This document shows positions 42,310 to 50,160 of a DNA stretch of 64,000 bases, piece after piece. The translations under genes and the position numbers were made by a program. Within the stretch, counting starts at the first letter, position 1, and each line of letters begins with the position of its first letter. A model generated the notes under the pieces. The model was not told the origin of the DNA. It worked only from the letters and a program-made list of their open reading frames with translations, and did no database searches. Source of the DNA: Prescottella equi (GTDB lineage Bacteria > Actinomycetota > Actinomycetes > Mycobacteriales > Mycobacteriaceae); contig NZ_JAIVAH010000014.1 in the NCBI RefSeq assembly GCF_020171745.1, positions 1-64,000 of the forward strand, read 5' to 3'.

Positions 42310-44274
42310 TCAGGACGGGCCGTGCGCGGGCTGGAACGTGCCGGTATGGCCCGACTCCTCGGCGCGGATGACGTGCACGACGGCGTTGATGAGCGCCAGG
42401 TGGGTGAAGGCCTGCGGGAAGTTCCCCAGGTGTCGGCCGGTCTTGGGGTCGATCTCCTCGCCGTAGAGCTTGAGGGGGCTCGCGAACCCGAGCAGGCGCT
42501 CGCACAGGTCCCGGGCCCGATTCACCTCCCCGATCTCGACGAGCGCCGACACCAGCCAGAACGAGCAGATCGTGAACGTCCCCTCCTTGCCGGAGAGGCC
42601 GTCGTCGGTGGACTCGACCCGGTATCGAAGCACCAGGCCGTCTTCGGTGAGCTCGTCCGCGATCGCCAGCACGGTGGCCTTGATGCGGTGGTCGTCGGCG
42701 GGCAGGAACCGTAGCAGCGGAGCCAGCAGCAGCGACGCGTCCAGGGACAGGTGCCCGTAGCGCTGCGTGAACACCCCGCGCTCGTCGACGCCGTGCTCGA
42801 GGATGTCGGCCTTGACCTCGTCCGCGATCTCGGCCCACTGTGCCGCGTACTCCTTCTCGCCGTGCAGCGCGGCCAGTTTGACCCCGCGGTCCAGCGCCAC
42901 CCAGCACATGATCTTCGACGACGTGAAGTGCTGCGGTTCGCCGCGCACCTCCCAGATCCCGCGGTCGGGCTCGCGCCAATGCTCGACGACCTCCTCGATC
43001 TGCCGTTTGAGCAGCGGCCACAACGTCTCGGGGACCTGGTCGCGAGAGCGCACGTGCAGATACACCGAGTCGAGCAGGGTGCCCCAGATGTCGTGCTGGT
43101 TCTGGTTGTAGGCGCCGTTGCCGATCCGTACGGGCAGGGCCCCGTCGTACCCCTTGAGGTGGCCGAGCTCCTCCTCGACGAGGGTGTGCTCACCGCCGAC
43201 GCCGTACATCACCTGCAGCGGTGCCGGATCGCCGTTGTCCGACTGTGCCGAATCGAAGATGAACGAGAAGAAGTCGTTGGCCTCACGGTCGAGACCGAGC
43301 GTGTAGAGGCCCCACAGTGCGAAGGTCGAATCCCGCACCCACGCGTAGCGGTAGTCCCAGTTACGTTCTCCGCCAGGGGTTTCCGGAAGCGATGTGGTGG
43401 GCGCTGCGAGCAGGGCGCCGGTGGGTGCGTAGGTGAGGCCCTTGAGGGTGAGGGCACTGCTCTGCAGGTGGCTGCGCCACGGATGGTCGGGGAATCGTCC
43501 GATCGTCACCCACTGGCGCCAGCACTCGGTGGTCTGCCACATCTTGTCGGCGGCCTCGGCGAACGTCTGTGGGGCCGCGAGCTCCGACCACGACAGTGCG
43601 ACGAATGCGTTGTCGCCCTCGACCATGCGGGTGCGTGCCCGTGCCTCGCGGCCCTCGACGCCCAGGCGCAGATTCGAGGTCAGGCGCAGCGCCGGATGCT
43701 CGCCGCCGGTGCGGCTGGTAGCGGTGGCCTCCTCGTACACGTTGCCGGTGTACTCCCAATGGGCCGGGGCGCGGTTGTAGTCGAACGCAGGCTCGCAGCT
43801 CATCTCGACCTCGACGGTGCCGCTGACGCACTTGACGGTGCGCAGCAGGATATGTTCGGCGTCCCAATCCGAGGGTGTCCGGCGTCGGGTGGGGGACCGC
43901 TGCGCGTTGGCGTGCCACGGGCCCATCACGAGCGTGTCGCGGACGATGAGCCAACCTGTCTGCGTCTGCCAGGTCGTCTCGAGAATGAGCCCGCCGGGAA
44001 GGTAGCGCCGCGCGGCCGGCACGTTCTGGCCGTACGGACCGATCCGGAAATGGCCGGCGCTCCGGTCGAGGATCGCGCCGAACACGCTGGGGGAGTCGGG
44101 ACGCGGGACGCACATCCACTCGACGGCGCCGTTGCGTGCGACCAGGCAGTTCGTCTCGCAATCCGAGAGGAAGGCGTAGTCGTCGATCGGCGGGAACATG
44201 GTGCGACGTTTCGGTGCCACCTCGTCGGAATCGGCGATGGGTGCGGTGACGGGCTGCTCGTCCGCGGACGTCAT
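42310..44274 (-). CDS. Glycoside hydrolase family 15 (trehalase/glucoamylase-like)
   Basis: A cytoplasmic GH15 enzyme of 654 aa: N-terminal beta-sandwich domain (about 25-270, PIDDYAFLSDCETNCLVARNGAVEW) and (alpha/alpha)6 barrel from about 290 with GGERNWDYRYAWVRDS near 305 and EEVVEHWREPDRGIWEVRGEPQ. In mycobacteria the homologue near lepA and subI acts as a trehalase (recalled). Glucoamylase or glucodextranase is the other possibility. ATG 44274 follows GAGGGG. It diverges from the first subI module. Confidence 0.9.
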   Translation of the reverse strand: MTSADEQPVTAPIADSDEVAPKRRTMFPPIDDYAFLSDCETNCLVARNGAVEWMCVPRPDSPSVFGAILDRSAGHFRIGPYGQNVPAARRYLPGGLILETTWQTQTGWLIVRDTLVMGPWHANAQRSPTRRRTPSDWDAEHILLRTVKCVSGTVEVEMSCEPAFDYNRAPAHWEYTGNVYEEATATSRTGGEHPALRLTSNLRLGVEGREARARTRMVEGDNAFVALSWSELAAPQTFAEAADKMWQTTECWRQWVTIGRFPDHPWRSHLQSSALTLKGLTYAPTGALLAAPTTSLPETPGGERNWDYRYAWVRDSTFALWGLYTLGLDREANDFFSFIFDSAQSDNGDPAPLQVMYGVGGEHTLVEEELGHLKGYDGALPVRIGNGAYNQNQHDIWGTLLDSVYLHVRSRDQVPETLWPLLKRQIEEVVEHWREPDRGIWEVRGEPQHFTSSKIMCWVALDRGVKLAALHGEKEYAAQWAEIADEVKADILEHGVDERGVFTQRYGHLSLDASLLLAPLLRFLPADDHRIKATVLAIADELTEDGLVLRYRVESTDDGLSGKEGTFTICSFWLVSALVEIGEVNRARDLCERLLGFASPLKLYGEEIDPKTGRHLGNFPQAFTHLALINAVVHVIRAEESGHTGTFQPAHGPS

Positions 44275-44367
44275 CCCCTCATCATCGACCCGGGCGCACG
44301 CCGACGTCCACGTTTCGGTGCCACCACGGAAGGGTCGGTGAGGTTCGCCGGAAAACGGGGTGTCTGT

Positions 44368-44373
44368 TACTCT
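44368..44373 (+). promoter_or_regulatory. -10 of the first subI uORF transcript
   Basis: TACTCT ends 7 nt before the uORF GTG at 44381, giving a leaderless start. The second module has TAAAGT at the same spacing. Confidence 0.55.
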
Positions 44374-44380
44374 CTGCGGC

Positions 44381-44470
44381 GTGTCTGTTGCCACCGCCCA
44401 CCGCGTCCGCCATGAACTGGCGTTGATTGCTGTCGGCGATCTGGCAGTTGCCGACATTCATTGTCGCTGA
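44381..44470 (+). CDS. Leader peptide of subI copy 1 (Cys-responsive uORF)
   Basis: A 29-aa uORF, MSVATAHRVRHELALIAV then GDLAVADIHCR, ending one codon after Cys. It starts with GTG right behind a -10 hexamer and has no ribosome site, so it should be read leaderless. It is nearly the same peptide as the uORF before the second subI (46216-46305). In mycobacteria, leaderless uORFs ending in cysteine codons act as cysteine-responsive attenuators of sulfur genes. Ribosome stalling at the Cys codon would report low cysteine. The assignment is by this resemblance. Confidence 0.75.
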   Translation: MSVATAHRVRHELALIAVGDLAVADIHCR

Positions 44471-44635
44471 CGCCTTTTCTCGGCGTTCACCTCCGCTCGA
44501 ATCCGGGCGAATTCGGTCCGTGGTCGGACCTTTCGTCATACCTTGTCGAGTGGTGCACCGACGGCCTGCCCTGTGCCCGGTTCGTCCTGAACGCCCCTCC
44601 GCTGCAGGACATCCCGTCCGATCTCTGTGAGTGCG

Positions 44636-44653
44636 GTCCGGCACGTGCCGGAC
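44636..44653 (+). promoter_or_regulatory. Attenuator-type hairpin before subI copy 1
   Basis: GTCCGGCACGTGCCGGAC is an 18-bp palindrome between the uORF and subI. It could serve as the terminator or RBS-blocking stem of the attenuator. No T tract follows. Confidence 0.4.
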
Positions 44654-44707
44654 TGGTTCCGTACGTCATCACCTTCATCTGTGAGCCTGGTAGGAAGGCA
44701 ATCCCCC

Positions 44708-45736
44708 ATGAGGCATCGTTCCCGTTCGTTCCTGACCGCCCTCGCCGCGATCGGCGCTGTCGCACTGACCGCCTGCGGCGGCGGTTCCAGCGACGTCGTC
44801 GGCGGCACCGAGACCGCCGACGGCAGCGGCGGCACGATCAACCTGTTCGCGTACGCGGTACCGAAGCCCGGGTTCGACAAGGTCACCGTCGGGTTCGCCG
44901 AGACCGAGGAGGGCAAGGGCGTGCGGTTCAACCCGTCGTACGGCGCCTCGGGTGACCAGTCGCGCAAGGTCAAGGACGGCGCGCAGGCCGACTTCGTGAA
45001 CTTCTCCGTCGAACCCGACATCACCCGCCTGGTGGATGCCGGTCTGGTCGACGAGAACTGGAACAAGGACGCGTACAACGGAATTCCGTTCGGTTCGGTC
45101 GTCACGATCGTCGTCCGCGAGGGCAACCCGAAGAACATCCAGGACTGGGACGACCTGCTGCGGCCGGGCATCGAGGTCGTCACGCCCAACCCCTTCAGTT
45201 CGGGCTCGGCCAAGTGGAACCTGTTGGCGCCGTATGCCGCCAAGAGTGAGGGTGGGAAGAATCCGCAGGCGGGTCTGGACTACCTCGACAAGCTCGTGGG
45301 CGAGCACGTGAAGGTGCAGCCCAAGTCGGGACGCGAGGCCACCGAGACGTTCCTGCAGGGCACCGGCGACGTGCTGCTCAGCTACGAGAACGAGGCGCTG
45401 TTCACCGAACGCAACGGCGATCCCGTCGAGCACGTCACCCCGCCGGTGACGTTCAAGATCGAGAACCCGGCCGCGGTGATCTCGAACAGCCCGAACGCCG
45501 CCCAGGCGACGGCCTTCCGCGACTACCTCTACACCACCGACGCGCAGCGACTGTGGGCCGAAGCCGGCTTCCGGCCCGTCGATCCGGCCGTCGCGGCGGA
45601 GTTCGCCGCCGACTTCCCGCAGCCGGAGAAGCTGTGGACCATCGCCGACCTCGGCGGCTGGAAGGCCGTGGACGCCGAGTTGTTCAAGCAGGGGACCGGC
45701 AGCATCGCCGTGATCTACGAGAAGGCGACCAACTAG
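44708..45736 (+). CDS. subI: Sulfate-binding lipoprotein, copy 1
   Basis: Periplasmic-side sulfate/thiosulfate receptor of the CysTWA transporter, 342 aa. The signal ends in the lipobox LTAC (Cys near residue 22), so it is membrane-anchored. The binding-protein signature NPSYGASGDQSRKVKDG and NPFSSGSAKWNLLAPYAAKSEGG are intact. ATG 44708 has TAGGAAGG upstream. It is followed by two small membrane genes and not directly by the permease; the second copy adjoins cysT. Confidence 0.93.
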   Translation: MRHRSRSFLTALAAIGAVALTACGGGSSDVVGGTETADGSGGTINLFAYAVPKPGFDKVTVGFAETEEGKGVRFNPSYGASGDQSRKVKDGAQADFVNFSVEPDITRLVDAGLVDENWNKDAYNGIPFGSVVTIVVREGNPKNIQDWDDLLRPGIEVVTPNPFSSGSAKWNLLAPYAAKSEGGKNPQAGLDYLDKLVGEHVKVQPKSGREATETFLQGTGDVLLSYENEALFTERNGDPVEHVTPPVTFKIENPAAVISNSPNAAQATAFRDYLYTTDAQRLWAEAGFRPVDPAVAAEFAADFPQPEKLWTIADLGGWKAVDAELFKQGTGSIAVIYEKATN

Positions 45737-45816
45737 CCGTCGTGCGTGCGGTGTGAGCGGCGGTGACCGGACGGGGCGACGATTGCGCCGCGTTCGGTCA
45801 CCGCCCCGGCAGCCGC

Positions 45817-45822
45817 TAGGGT
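45817..45822 (+). promoter_or_regulatory. Candidate -10 before the 74-aa membrane gene
   Basis: TAGGGT ends 6 nt before the GTG at 45829, again a leaderless layout. TTCGGT lies 18 bp further upstream as a weak -35. Confidence 0.4.
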
Positions 45823-45828
45823 GGTCGG

Positions 45829-46053
45829 GTGGATCAACTCGCGAACTGGTGGGACGGCGCCGAACTGTGGATCGCCGGCCTTCCGTTCATTCCCCAGGTT
45901 CTCCTGGTGCTCGCGGTGATGATCCCGGCCTGCTTCGGTATCGCCTGGCTGCTCGACCGCGTGTTGTCCGCGGTGTTCGCGGCGATCGGTCGTGCCGAAC
46001 CGGCCGCGTCGGATGTCTGCGCGGAGGCGCGCTCGAAGGTGGAGGGTTCCTGA
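45829..46053 (+). CDS. Small membrane protein (74 aa)
   Basis: A short protein with one strong hydrophobic helix (VLLVLAVMIPACFGIAWLL, about residues 24-43) and a charged C-terminus. It lies between the two subI copies. A small membrane gene at a similar place is recalled for M. tuberculosis (Rv2401A region). The stop overlaps the next ATG (TGATG). Function unknown. Confidence 0.7.
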   Translation: MDQLANWWDGAELWIAGLPFIPQVLLVLAVMIPACFGIAWLLDRVLSAVFAAIGRAEPAASDVCAEARSKVEGS

Positions 46054-46130
46054 TGCCGCGCTCACGCGTGACCCTGGCTCTGATCGCACTGATCGTCCTG
46101 GTCGTCATCGCCTGGTACTTCACCCGCTGA
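46053..46130 (+). CDS. 25-aa transmembrane microprotein
   Basis: MPRSRVTLALIALIVLVVIA then WYFTR: a positively charged start, one membrane span and a basic end. It overlaps the stop of the 74-aa gene by one base (TGATG), suggesting translational coupling. GGAGGG lies 6 nt before the ATG. Such a peptide would escape most gene finders. Function unknown; a partner of the 74-aa protein is the simplest idea. Confidence 0.55.
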   Translation: MPRSRVTLALIALIVLVVIAWYFTR

Positions 46131-46202
46131 CGCCTACCCGGCTCCCGGTCCGCCCGTCCCGTTCACCAGAAATGCGATTCGGACGGCGGTTCGGTGCTCT
46201 GC

Positions 46203-46208
46203 TAAAGT
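46203..46208 (+). promoter_or_regulatory. -10 of the second subI uORF transcript
   Basis: TAAAGT ends 7 nt before the uORF GTG at 46216, the same spacing as in the first module. Confidence 0.55.
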
Positions 46209-46215
46209 CTGCCGC

Positions 46216-46305
46216 GTGTCTGTAGTCGTCGCCCACCAGGTCCGCCATGAATTGGCGTTGATCGCTGTCGGCCGACTCGCAGTTGCCGACGTCGACTGTT
46301 GTTGA
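46216..46305 (+). CDS. Leader peptide of subI copy 2 (Cys-responsive uORF)
   Basis: A 29-aa uORF, MSVVVAHQVRHELALIAV then GRLAVADVDCC, ending with two Cys codons directly before the stop. Same length and central VRHELALIAV core as the uORF before subI copy 1. It starts leaderless behind TAAAGT. A 7-bp hairpin (46339-46357) follows 33 nt after the stop. It should control subI-cysTWA by cysteine availability; this is inferred from the family. Confidence 0.78.
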   Translation: MSVVVAHQVRHELALIAVGRLAVADVDCC

Positions 46306-46338
46306 TTCCCCCGTCGGTGTTCGCCCAGTCGTGACACG

Positions 46339-46357
46339 CGCGTTCCGTCCGAACGCG
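46339..46357 (+). promoter_or_regulatory. Attenuator-type hairpin 1 before subI copy 2
   Basis: CGCGTTC pairs with GAACGCG around a CGTCC loop, 33 nt after the uORF stop. A ribosome stalled on the Cys codons would lie just upstream. Confidence 0.4.
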
Positions 46358-46428
46358 TAGCTTCCCGCCCGTCACCTCGCCGCCCACGTGTGCCGCGAAC
46401 GCCTCCGTGCCCCGATAGCTCCCGCCGC

Positions 46429-46444
46429 CCGACCGTCCGGTCGG
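46429..46444 (+). promoter_or_regulatory. Attenuator-type hairpin 2 before subI copy 2
   Basis: CCGACC-GTCC-GGTCGG, about 56 bp upstream of the subI start codon. Confidence 0.35.
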
Positions 46445-46500
46445 TTCGATCCTGTGCGAGCTCTTCTGCATCTGTCGGCATTGTAGGAAGGTAAATCCGT

Positions 46501-47532
46501 ATGAACCATCGGTCCCGCTCCCTCTTGGCTGCGCTCGTCGCCGCCGGGACGATGGCACTTGCCGGGTGTAGCGGCGGTTCGAGCGACGTCATGGGCGGGG
46601 GAGACGTCGGTGCCGACGGCAGTGGCGGCACGATCAACCTGTTCGCATACGGCGTCCCCAAGCCCGGCTACGACAAGGTCACCGCGGCGTTCGCGGAGAC
46701 CGTGGACGGTCAGGGTGTGCGGTTCAATCCGTCGTACGGTGCCTCGGGTGACCAGTCGCGCAAGGTCAAGGACGGCGCGCAGGCGGACCTGGTGAGCTTC
46801 TCCGTCGAACCGGAGATCAGCCGGCTCGTGGAGGCGGGCCTGGTCGACGACTCCTGGAACCAGAATGCCTACGGCGGTGTCCCGTTCGGGTCCGTCGTGA
46901 CGCTCGTCGTGCGTGAGGGCAATCCGAAGAACATCCGCGACTGGGACGACCTGCTGCGGCCGGGCATCGAGGTGGTCACCCCGAATCCGTTCAGCTCCGG
47001 GTCGGCGAAGTGGAATCTGTTGGCGCCGTATGCCGCCAAGAGCGAGGGTGGGAAGAATCCGCAGGCGGGTCTGGACTACCTCGACAAGCTCGTGGGCGAG
47101 CACGTGAAGGTGCAGCCGAAGTCGGGACGTGAGGCGACCGAGATGTTCCTGCAGGGCACCGGCGACGTGCTGCTGAGCTACGAGAACGAGGCGCTGTTCA
47201 CCGAGCGCAAGGGCGATCCCGTCGAGCACGCCACCCCGGCCGTGACGTTCAAGGTGGAGAACCCGGTCGCCGTCGTCTCGACGGGCCGGAACGCGTCCAC
47301 CGCCGTCACGTTCCGCGAATTCCTGTACACCCCTGCGGCGCAACGCCAGTGGGCGCAGGCCGGGTTCCGCCCCGTCGATCCGGCCGTCCTGGCCGAGTTC
47401 GCGGCCGACTTCCCGGAGCCGCAGAAGCTGTGGACCATCGCCGACCTCGGTGGGTGGGACGCCGTCGACCAGGATCTGTTCGAGCAGGACTCGGGACGGA
47501 TCGCCGCCATCTACGAGAACGCGACGAAGTGA
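46501..47532 (+). CDS. subI: Sulfate-binding lipoprotein, copy 2
   Basis: Paralogue of the protein at 44708-45736, 343 aa, with lipobox LAGC. It directly precedes cysT (1-nt overlap), so it is the copy in the transporter operon. The two copies share a stretch of about 120 bp (47017-47139 against 45221-45343) with three mismatches, while the 30 bp upstream differ at 6 synonymous sites. The copies could differ in affinity or regulation. GTAGGAAGG precedes the ATG. Confidence 0.93.
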   Translation: MNHRSRSLLAALVAAGTMALAGCSGGSSDVMGGGDVGADGSGGTINLFAYGVPKPGYDKVTAAFAETVDGQGVRFNPSYGASGDQSRKVKDGAQADLVSFSVEPEISRLVEAGLVDDSWNQNAYGGVPFGSVVTLVVREGNPKNIRDWDDLLRPGIEVVTPNPFSSGSAKWNLLAPYAAKSEGGKNPQAGLDYLDKLVGEHVKVQPKSGREATEMFLQGTGDVLLSYENEALFTERKGDPVEHATPAVTFKVENPVAVVSTGRNASTAVTFREFLYTPAAQRQWAQAGFRPVDPAVLAEFAADFPEPQKLWTIADLGGWDAVDQDLFEQDSGRIAAIYENATK

Positions 47533-48413
47533 TGACGACAGTGACGACTCAGCCGACTCGACAGTCGGCGCAGACACCACCACCGAAACCGAAGGCACGT
47601 TTCCGGCGCAGGTTCGCCGTCACCGGCGCGGTCGGCCCGTTGGGCATCGGCATCGCGGGCCTGTGGCTCAGCGTCATCGTGCTGCTCCCGCTGGCGGCGC
47701 TCGCGGTCACCTCGTTCGAGAACGGCTGGGCCGGCTTCTGGGACGCGGTCACCGCGCCCGGCGCGCTCGCGGCGCTGCGGGTGACCGTCGTGGTCTCGGC
47801 GATCGTCGCCGTGGTCAACGTCGTGATGGGCACCGCAATCGCCTGGGTGCTGGTGCGCGACGAGTTCCCCGGCAAGCGAATCGTCAACGCGCTCATCGAT
47901 CTCCCGTTCGCGCTGCCGACGATCGTCGCGAGCATCGTGCTGCTCTCGCTGTACGGGCCGCAGAGCCCGGTGGGCATCCACCTCAACGCGACGCAGCCGG
48001 GCCTGATCATCGCGCTGGCCTTCGTGACGCTGCCGTTCGTCGTGCGGTCGGTGCAGCCGGTGCTGATCGAGGCCGATCGCGAGGTCGAGGAGGCCGCCGC
48101 GTCGCTGGGCGCGAACAACTGGACCATCTTCCGCTCGGTGGTTCTGCCCACGCTCGCGCCGGCGGTCATCAGCGGTGCAGGACTCGCGTTCGCCCGCGCG
48201 ATCGGCGAGTACGGGTCGGTGGTCCTCATCGGCGGCAACATCCCGCGCGAGACGCAGGTCGCGTCGCAGTACATCCAGCAGCAGATCGAGATCGACCGCC
48301 CGGTCAGTGCCGCCGCCGTCTCGGTGGCACTGCTGGCGATCGCGTTCGTGACGCTGTTCGTCCTGCGCGTGTTCGCGGCCCGCAACCAGCGCCGAGAGGA
48401 GAACGCACAGTGA
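47532..48413 (+). CDS. cysT: Sulfate ABC transporter permease CysT
   Basis: Inner-membrane permease of 293 aa with six helices. The EAA loop, EADREVEEAAASLGANNWTI near residues 177-196, contacts CysA, and the N-terminal 25 residues are cytoplasmic. The ATG overlaps the subI stop by one base (TGATG); GTG 47529 is an alternative. The stop overlaps the cysW GTG, so the cluster is coupled. Confidence 0.94.
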   Translation: MTTVTTQPTRQSAQTPPPKPKARFRRRFAVTGAVGPLGIGIAGLWLSVIVLLPLAALAVTSFENGWAGFWDAVTAPGALAALRVTVVVSAIVAVVNVVMGTAIAWVLVRDEFPGKRIVNALIDLPFALPTIVASIVLLSLYGPQSPVGIHLNATQPGLIIALAFVTLPFVVRSVQPVLIEADREVEEAAASLGANNWTIFRSVVLPTLAPAVISGAGLAFARAIGEYGSVVLIGGNIPRETQVASQYIQQQIEIDRPVSAAAVSVALLAIAFVTLFVLRVFAARNQRREENAQ

Positions 48414-49216
48414 AGCTGTCCCCGACGGCGCGGATCGGTCTGCGGACCATCGTCCTCGCCTACCTGTTCGTCCTGCTGATCATGCCGATCGCGGTGATCC
48501 TGTACCGCACGTTCGAGAACGGCTTCGTCGCGTTCTACCACGCGATCAGCACCCCGGCCGCGATCTCGGCGCTCAACATGTCGCTGATCATCGTGGCGAT
48601 CGTGGTTCCGCTCAATGTCGTGTTCGGCATCGTGACGGCGCTCGCGCTGGTGCGCGGACGCTTCCCCGGGCGTGGACTGCTGCAGTCGGTGGTCGACCTG
48701 CCGTTCGCGGTGTCGCCCATCGTCGTCGGCGTCTCGCTGATCCTGCTGTGGGGCGCGAACGGCTGGTTCGGCGGGCTCGAATCGACCGGCTTCAAAGTGA
48801 TCTTCGGATTGCCGGGCATGGTGATCGCCACCATCTTCGTGACGCTGCCGTTCGTGGTGCGCGAGGTGGAGCCCGTGCTGCACGAGATCGGTGAGGAGCA
48901 GGAACAGGCCGCGGCGACGCTGGGAGCGTCGAAGTGGCAGACGTTCACGCGAATCACCCTGCCCGCCATCCGGTGGGGCCTGACCTACGGCGTCGTCCTC
49001 ACCGTCGCCCGCGCGCTCGGCGAGTTCGGCGCGGTCATCATGGTCTCGTCCGGCATCCCCGGGCAGTCGCAGACCCTGACCCTGCTCGTCCACTCCCGCT
49101 ACATCGACGACCACAACACCTTCGGGGCCTACTCGGCGGCGACGCTGCTGATGGGTATCGCCCTGATCACCCTGCTGCTGATGACTCTGCTCGACCGCAA
49201 GAGGAGCACGACATGA
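48410..49216 (+). CDS. cysW: Sulfate ABC transporter permease CysW
   Basis: Second permease of the sulfate/thiosulfate importer, 268 aa with six helices. The EAA loop is [19 protein letters not shown] near residues 159-178. GTG 48410 overlaps the cysT stop; AGGAGA inside cysT is the ribosome site. The stop overlaps the cysA ATG. Pairs with CysT to form the channel. Confidence 0.94.
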
Positions 49217-50160
49217 TCACCGTGACCGGTGCGCGCAAGAACTACGGCGATTTCGCCGCGCTCGACGATGTCACCCTCGACATCCCGTCCGGATCGCTGA
49301 CCGCGCTGCTGGGCCCCAGTGGTTCGGGCAAGTCGACGCTGCTGCGCTCGATCGCCGGCCTCGAGCATCCCGACTCGGGCACCATCACCATCGCCGGTAA
49401 GGACGTCACCGGGGTGCCGCCGCAGAAGCGCGACATCGGCTTCGTGTTCCAGCACTACGCCGCGTTCAAGCACATGACGGTGCGCGACAACGTCGCATTC
49501 GGCCTCAAGATCCGCAAGCGCCCGAAGGCCGAGATCACCAAGAAGGTCGACGACCTGCTGGGGATCGTCGGGCTCGACGGCTTCCAGCACCGCTACCCGG
49601 CGCAGCTGTCGGGCGGCCAGCGTCAGCGCATGGCCCTCGCCCGCGCGCTCGCCGTCGATCCGCAGGTGCTCCTGTTGGACGAGCCGTTCGGCGCGCTGGA
49701 CGCGAAGGTGCGCGACGATCTGCGGACGTGGCTGCGCCGCCTGCACGACGAGGTGCACGTGACCACGGTGCTGGTCACCCACGACCAGGAGGAGGCGCTC
49801 GACGTCGCCGACCGGATCGCGGTGCTCAACAAGGGCCGCATCGAGCAGGTCGGCACCCCGCAGGAGCTGTACGACACTCCGGCCAACGATTTCGTGATGT
49901 CGTTCCTCGGGCCGGTAGCGCGTCTGAACGGCCAGCTGGTGCGCCCGCACGATCTGCGCCTGGATCGCAACCAGCTGCCGCAGTCGTTCGCGGCCACCGT
50001 CTCCCGCGTCGTGCATCTCGGTTTCGAGGTCCGCGTCGAGTTGCAGCCCAAGACGGGTGCGCAGGAGCTGTCCGCTCAGATCACCCGCAGCGATGCCGAG
50101 GCCCTCGGTCTGCGTGAGGGCGAGACGGTGTACGTGCGGCCGAGCGATATCGCCGGCTAG
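49213..50160 (+). CDS. cysA: Sulfate ABC transporter ATPase CysA
   Basis: ATPase that powers sulfate import, 315 aa. Walker [10 protein letters not shown] is near residue 34, the signature LSGGQRQR near 132 and Walker B LLLDEP near 152. A TOBE-like regulatory segment follows from about 245 ([11 protein letters not shown]). The C-terminus is a little short compared with E. coli CysA. The ATG overlaps the cysW stop; AGGAGCACGAC precedes it. Confidence 0.95.

Follow-up and report, generated by a model that had tools for sequence, protein, structure and literature searches.

Tandem uORF-subI units with Ms4533A-type cysteine leaders beside a single sulfate transporter gene set in Prescottella equi

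Leader-controlled operons are familiar from Escherichia coli, in which the related operons ilvGMEDA and ilvBN carry leaders (ilvL and ivbL, respectively) of unlike sensor-codon make-up. In cysteine-responsive leaderless attenuators, a stalled ribosome unmasks the ribosome-binding site. Canestrari 2020 is said to be the key paper on the polycysteine leaderless sORF attenuators of mycobacteria. According to passages of a review (PMC9031893) and of a 2026 Nat Microbiol paper (PMC13236596), the cysteine-run leaderless uORFs of Mycobacterium smegmatis act through attenuation on the genes that follow them. Passages of Shell 2015 (PMC4633059) describe short uORFs of leaderless type, with Cys codons near the end, that lie before sulfur genes. 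A 2022 eLife paper (PMC9094748) was consulted as well, and in PMC7790235 the relevant terms occur in the references only.

The window analysed here is a stretch of 64,000 nucleotides from Prescottella equi that contains two uORF-subI units in tandem (Table 1). The order on the + strand is uORF1, subI1, a 74-aa ORF, a 25-aa ORF, uORF2, subI2, cysT, cysW, and cysA. A first-pass annotation had reported two 29-aa uORFs ending in HCR-stop and DCC-stop, each with its GTG exactly 7 nt after a TANNNT hexamer, and both statements can be read directly from the sequence. The sulfate-binding protein gene that it placed behind each uORF is a subI gene (uORF-to-subI spacing, 237 nt in copy 1 and 195 nt in copy 2), and its single transporter corresponds to one cysTWA set at this locus. 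The two SubI proteins are 80% identical and are related to the solved SubI structure 6ddn and to the sulfate-binding protein 1sbp; SubI2 scores 4.4 bits below the TIGR00971 cut-off. The promoter spacing is not due to chance, because in the whole window, on both strands, just three ORFs of 10-60 aa have an ATG or GTG 7 nt after a TANNNT hexamer, and uORF1 and uORF2 are two of the three. Each subI gene is probably governed by a separate Ms4533A-type leaderless cysteine attenuator, in a unit that was duplicated beside one cysTWA set.

The two small ORFs between the units match no NCBIfam or Pfam family above cut-off. They lie beside the sulfate transporter in 13 genus relatives and in the 7 outside loci examined, and the product of the 25-aa ORF looks like one membrane helix. 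An Rfam search of positions 44200-46700 returned three matches, all far under the gathering scores.

Table 1. Features of the two uORF-subI units and the adjoining transporter genes (window coordinates).
Feature	Position	Strand	Remarks
-10-like hexamer TACTCT	44368-44373	+	exactly 7 nt 5' of uORF1 GTG
uORF1	44381-44470	+	29 aa, MSVATAHRVRHELALIAVGDLAVADIHCR then stop; end His-Cys-Arg-stop (UGU CGC UGA)
Stem CGCCA-N5-TGGCG in uORF1	44408-44422	+	exact consensus site; 5 bp
Candidate leader helix, copy 1, 5' arm GGCGTTCA	44482-44489	+	
Candidate leader helix, copy 1, 3' arm TGAACGCC	44588-44595	+	
9-bp G+C hairpin	44634-44655	+	no clear U tract; 52 nt before subI1 ATG; 7/300 shuffles as long
subI1, sulfate-binding lipoprotein	44708-45736	+	TIGR00971 165.3 bits (cut-off 155.5); PDB 6ddn SubI, E 3e-137
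74-aa small ORF	45829-46053	+	precedes leader in one-copy genomes; position conserved
25-aa small hydrophobic ORF MPRSRVTLALIALIVLVVIAWYFTR	46053-46130	+	adjoins 74-aa ORF
-10-like hexamer TAAAGT	46203-46208	+	exactly 7 nt 5' of uORF2 GTG
uORF2	46216-46305	+	29 aa, MSVVVAHQVRHELALIAVGRLAVADVDCC then stop; end Asp-Cys-Cys-stop (UGU UGU UGA)
Stem CGCCA-N5-TGGCG in uORF2	46243-46257	+	exact consensus site; 5 bp
Candidate leader helix, copy 2, 5' arm GGTGTTCGC	46316-46324	+	
Candidate leader helix, copy 2, 3' arm GCGAACGCC	46395-46403	+	
6-bp G+C hairpin	46429-46444	+	56 nt before subI2 ATG; 28/300 shuffles as long
subI2, sulfate-binding lipoprotein	46501-47532	+	TIGR00971 151.1 bits (cut-off 155.5); PDB 6ddn SubI, E 2.6e-131
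cysT, sulfate permease	47532-48413	+	TIGR02139 270.9 bits (cut-off 246.1)
cysW, sulfate permease	48410-49216	+	TIGR02140 346.4 bits (cut-off 329.1)
cysA, sulfate ABC ATPase	49213-50160	+	TIGR00968 414.3 bits (cut-off 342.75)

Both peptides score above the cut-off of 31 for NCBIfam NF042937, the "Ms4533A family Cys-rich leader peptide" (54 bits for uORF1, 42.8 bits for uORF2), so the leader type is one already known from the cysteine attenuators of mycobacteria, and the earlier assignment to a known leaderless cysteine family stands. By sequence, both fit a Cys-ended leaderless ORF, being short, with UGU at the end and with the GTG 7 nt behind a -10-like hexamer; uORF1 has one Cys and so is not a "poly" Cys ORF. 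The search covered 301 genomes of the taxonomic family; 151 have a match to NF042937 above cut-off, and homologue loci were taken from part of these 151. A peptide pattern applied to the fetched loci (L001 and L002, copies of the window, were omitted) gave 141 candidates, of which 136 were kept and five, with no hexamer 5-9 nt upstream, were dropped; judged by sequence, four of the five are not leaders and L025 may be one. The first-pass annotation had called for a search for the core peptide before subI in relatives, and SubI indeed follows 135 of the 136 homologue leaders, the remaining one being cut by the locus end. A place before subI, like that of the window uORFs, is also the context of MSMEG_4533. 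Setting aside two of the 135 in which the SubI start could not be set gave 133 leader rows, a small number of them repeats, and 128 distinct cores were counted after removal of one locus and of repeats. Of 125 distinct homologues, 112 have a TANNNT hexamer at 7 nt from the start, as against 2 of 125 shuffled upstream stretches; the homologue set is conditioned on spacing because the hexamer-less candidates (5/141) had already been dropped.

The codon at the sensor position (core column 19) is UGU in all 128 cores and in all 21 leaders from loci L178-L239; two of the 21 were already among the 128, which gives 147 of 147 distinct leaders. A single tRNA-Cys reads UGU through wobble pairing. In column 20, UGU occurs 75 times and UGC 11 times in the 128 set, and the other leaders have UGU in 19 of 19. 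Where column 18 is Cys, the codon is UGU in 14 and UGC in one of the other leaders and UGC in one of the 128 set, and column 21 is UGC in 8 of 8 of the other leaders (UGU 3, UGC 1 in the 128 set). Earlier Cys codons, in columns 11-12, are UGC 12 times and UGU once over both sets, and the Cys codons of SubI for the 128-leader set are UGC in 124 of 135 cases and UGU in 11. UGU at the terminal columns, as against UGC earlier in the peptide and in SubI, is thus a mark of the terminal run.

In the proposed mechanism, transcription would start at the uORF GTG, a ribosome would load on the 5' end of the transcript, and how fast it passes the terminal UGU (one or more) would report the supply of Cys-tRNA. 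With cysteine short, the ribosome would wait at UGU, the leader would stay permissive, and SubI would be made; with cysteine plentiful, the ribosome would finish and leave, and SubI would fall. Duplication of the unit of uORF and receptor in this genus has yielded two receptors with separate leaders and one cysTWA set. For both leaders, the leaderless start, the translation, the cysteine response, and the downstream step are predictions from sequence. Several observations count against an attenuator: the single Cys of uORF1 makes a weak "polycysteine" sensor, the strong conservation of the peptide exceeds what the counting of codons needs, and neither leader folding nor the terminator search, both described below, lent it support.

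The leader is present in all 14 Prescottella genomes examined, and 11 of the 14 have two uORF-subI units. In eight genomes, including that of the window, one copy precedes the small ORFs and the other lies between them and cysTWA (order A), and in three genomes both copies lie between the small ORFs and cysTWA (order B). Three genus genomes have one copy behind the small ORFs, as do the 7 loci examined outside the genus, G244 among them with an interval of about 1.2 kb. In the subI DNA tree, both copies of the three genomes group together (84/68), as do both copies of the eight (86/76); neither grouping is strong, and the AU test does not reject a single duplication behind the 11 genomes (p-AU 0.051 and 0.073). 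The SubI protein tree does not resolve the order of the copies. In the DNA tree, the upstream copies of these eight do not form one clade, and those of G005 and G006 fall among the downstream copies (96/97), which leaves room for gene conversion or for a more complicated history. Two duplications in the genus are favoured, though not proven, mainly because the DNA tree and the gene order agree. Outside the genus, among the matches listed, only G062 has two leaders; these (L158 and L159) are unlinked, on different contigs, and each lies before a subI gene, with the ends DCR and ACCR.

The first-pass annotation held that uORF, leader, and binding protein gene were copied as a unit. The two uORFs (identical at 72 of 90 nt) and the two genes (at 854 of 1032 aligned columns) bear this out well; divergence is far greater between uORF and SD (91 of 218 columns) and in the 50 nt that lead up to the uORF (21 of 50). 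The middle parts of subI1 and subI2 are near-identical (172 of 180 nt in columns 541-720, with an identical run of 74 nt) and the flanks are less alike, which suggests gene conversion between the two genes. In window coordinates, the near-identical middle lies at 45216-45430 and 47014-47230.

The duplication might merely raise the amount of receptor, with the uORF as a passenger and the Cys difference as drift. This is a serious possibility, if not the probable one: the near-identical tract, together with a central run of 63 residues that is identical in SubI1 and SubI2, is consistent with it, yet both uORF cores are intact in all 11 two-copy genomes. The Cys difference itself points both ways. 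A single substitution (UGU to CGU) can turn Cys into Arg, and many leaders of the family end in one Cys, as drift would have it, but the loss of Cys is restricted to upstream copies. The number of Cys is unequal in 6 of the 11 two-copy pairs and equal (CC/CC) in 5, and the one-Cys leader is the upstream copy in every unequal pair (G000, G001, G005, G006, G010, and G011), that is, in 6 of the 8 genomes with the gene order of the window. The upstream copies of G007 and G013 have two Cys, as do all other leaders among the 25 of the genus. At least three changes of Cys number occurred, all in upstream copies and none in downstream ones, and three losses explain them as well as a single loss followed by two regains.

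For the attenuator reading, the step that follows the ribosome's pause is open to control of either translation or transcription of subI, with no firm choice between them. Within the genus, a candidate helix GGYGUUCG/CGAACGCC spans the leader, with 88.4% of cells paired in 22 leaders, and three of its pairs are changed on both sides, a number reached by 9 of 500 shuffles for a structure derived from the same 22 sequences. The short leaders of G001, G005, and G006 were omitted; these upstream copies (L060, L064, and L065) have 70-84 nt between uORF and subI, as against 184-249 nt elsewhere, and a strong G+C hairpin shortly after the uORF. No post-stop helix is shared across the family (19 of 120 leaders at p <=0.05), and a helix between GCCGA in the uORF and UCGGC after the stop, with 91.8% of cells paired and no covariation, was left as an idea only. 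Perfect stems of at least 6 bp precede the ATG in 18 of the 25 genus leaders, but for no more than 7 of the 18 is the stem matched by 15 or fewer of 300 shuffles. No intrinsic terminator common to the family was seen upstream of the gene: there are hairpins, but U tracts do not accompany them consistently. Folding of 125 leaders, which is unreliable for long G+C-rich RNA, did not support masking or unmasking of the SD by a Cys-held ribosome: with the ribosome on Cys, SD openness rose by more than 0.1 in 7 leaders and the SD closed in 15, and mean openness was 0.33 without a ribosome, 0.32 with one on Cys, and 0.34 with one at the stop.

Rho-dependent termination, from which a Cys-held ribosome would shield the C-rich leader, is a tentative candidate for this step. 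Of 121 leaders, 116 contain more C than G, which is true of 64 of 121 stretches immediately upstream and of 40 of 121 coding stretches; richness in C, however, is no Rho site. The inconsistent SD masking and the missing U-tract terminator would agree with Rho, whereas three upstream-copy leaders of just 70-84 nt do not, and the nearest published case works on translation according to passages of PMC9031893.

Different numbers of Cys codons might also set different cysteine ranges for the two receptors, as the first-pass annotation had suggested. Two such thresholds are possible but rather unlikely. The confinement of one-Cys leaders to upstream copies in the genus (6 of 8 genomes; at least three changes against none) fits this proposal, as do the unlinked DCR and ACCR leaders of G062 and the length of the Cys run across the family, which ranges from 1 to 4. 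Counted from the sensor column, the run is one Cys in 44, two in 85, and three in 4 of the 133 leader rows; 6 of the 44 one-Cys rows are upstream copies of the genus, and 38 of the 133 rows are one-Cys leaders from outside it. One-Cys leaders are thus common elsewhere, so a single codon may suffice; five of the 11 pairs are CC/CC, and the leaders differ widely at other positions too. A set of 80 named SubI loci gave a leader under the pattern in 40, including several from Mycolicibacterium that end in CCCR or CCCC; at the other 40 the leader may be missing or too divergent for the pattern. The difference in Cys number is recurrent and one-sided, yet neither fixed nor a new state.

The conservation of the uORF extends beyond its end. 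Across 128 uORFs, 13 of the 20 residues of the core show conservation of 95% or more, and SubI, a protein of about 343 residues, has 118 such columns. The codons at A8, V14, A15, and D16 vary about as those in SubI do, so selection at these positions acts on the peptide. A role for the peptide itself, either as a nascent chain that aids arrest or as a small product that acts in trans, is nevertheless doubtful, since part of the conservation lies at the nucleotide level, as the UGU rule and a stem inside the uORF show.

This stem, CGCCA-N5-TGGCG, is encoded by the codons for R-H-E-L-A. Over 147 loci its outer pair is C-G in 122, G-C in 18, U-G in 2, G-U in 1, A-U in 1, and unpaired in 3; the 144 paired cases compare with a shuffle mean of 110 and were equalled in 0 of 2000 shuffles, which ignore relatedness. 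The inner four pairs are paired in 147 of 147 and hardly vary, so the covariation rests on one pair. The third bases of codons are almost invariant in the stem but variable in the loop: the Arg codon is CGC in 122 of 122 (54% in SubI), and the Ala codon is GCG in 96% (42% in SubI). Another stem inside the uORF, GUCGGC/GCCGAC, was rejected: of 128 leaders, 19 disrupt one of its pairs and 22 disrupt another. The palindrome might instead be a regulator's operator in the DNA, which would accommodate the compensating changes equally well; this is improbable, as the palindrome falls within what is presumed to be transcribed, its loop varies at third codon positions, and the exact consensus occurs in its own genome solely at uORF1 and uORF2 (degenerate sites lie outside that search).

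Taken to its fullest extent, the Ms4533A leader would be a composite sensor, with an RNA stem inside the uORF that times polymerase and ribosome, a conserved peptide core, shortly ahead of the sensor codon by a few residues, that aids arrest, and a strict use of UGU that would make the arrest hypersensitive to cysteine; it would have been duplicated with its receptor, probably twice in Prescottella, and its upstream copy tuned by a dropped sensor codon. So inclusive a model is unlikely to hold as a whole. The position-specific UGU rule and the uORF stem are concrete, testable parts of the attenuator mechanism. The locus offers a natural pair of the same sensor, one end codon apart, before two near-identical receptors, which suits testing of the number of sensor codons that an attenuator requires, and relatives with one to four Cys extend the comparison. 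Judged by titles and the starts of abstracts, no literature report of the tandem copy, the UGU rule, or the uORF stem was found, and other papers may contain them. Tandem copies with unequal Cys codons and a folded RNA within the uORF may be new; the kind of sensor is itself known.

Compared with the terminator-based ilvL and ivbL attenuators, which lie apart, the window leaders form a tandem pair for one receptor gene and have no clear terminator. The examples in the passages of Shell 2015 (PMC4633059) are cysA2, Rv0485, and nirA; a subI leader is not among the three, and those passages on polycysteine sORFs do not include the UGU rule or a uORF stem. Mycobacterial polycysteine sORFs differ from the window leaders, which have one or two Cys. 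A third Cys-rich leader in the window, at 60105-60016 on the - strand (MTDTGVRLVARRHVDLKRVCSCCCLPCGA, then stop), scores 49.3 bits for NF042936 (Ms4527A; cut-off 45) and has TGT in four of five Cys codons; by analogy with Msmeg_4527, the gene that starts at about 59851 (-) behind it is probably nirA. It shares the window and the richness in Cys with uORF1 and uORF2, but has a different peptide (RRHVDLKRVCSCCC), one copy above cut-off, and another gene downstream; NF042935 and NF042938 proved to be unrelated families. The closest relatives of the window leaders are those of the Ms4533A family (NF042937), with the same core peptide, Cys end, and SubI downstream (135/136 loci). In contrast to that family, Prescottella has two tandem units (11/14 genomes) with an unequal number of Cys in 6 of 11, and the Mycolicibacterium leaders found end in three or four Cys where those of the window have one or two.
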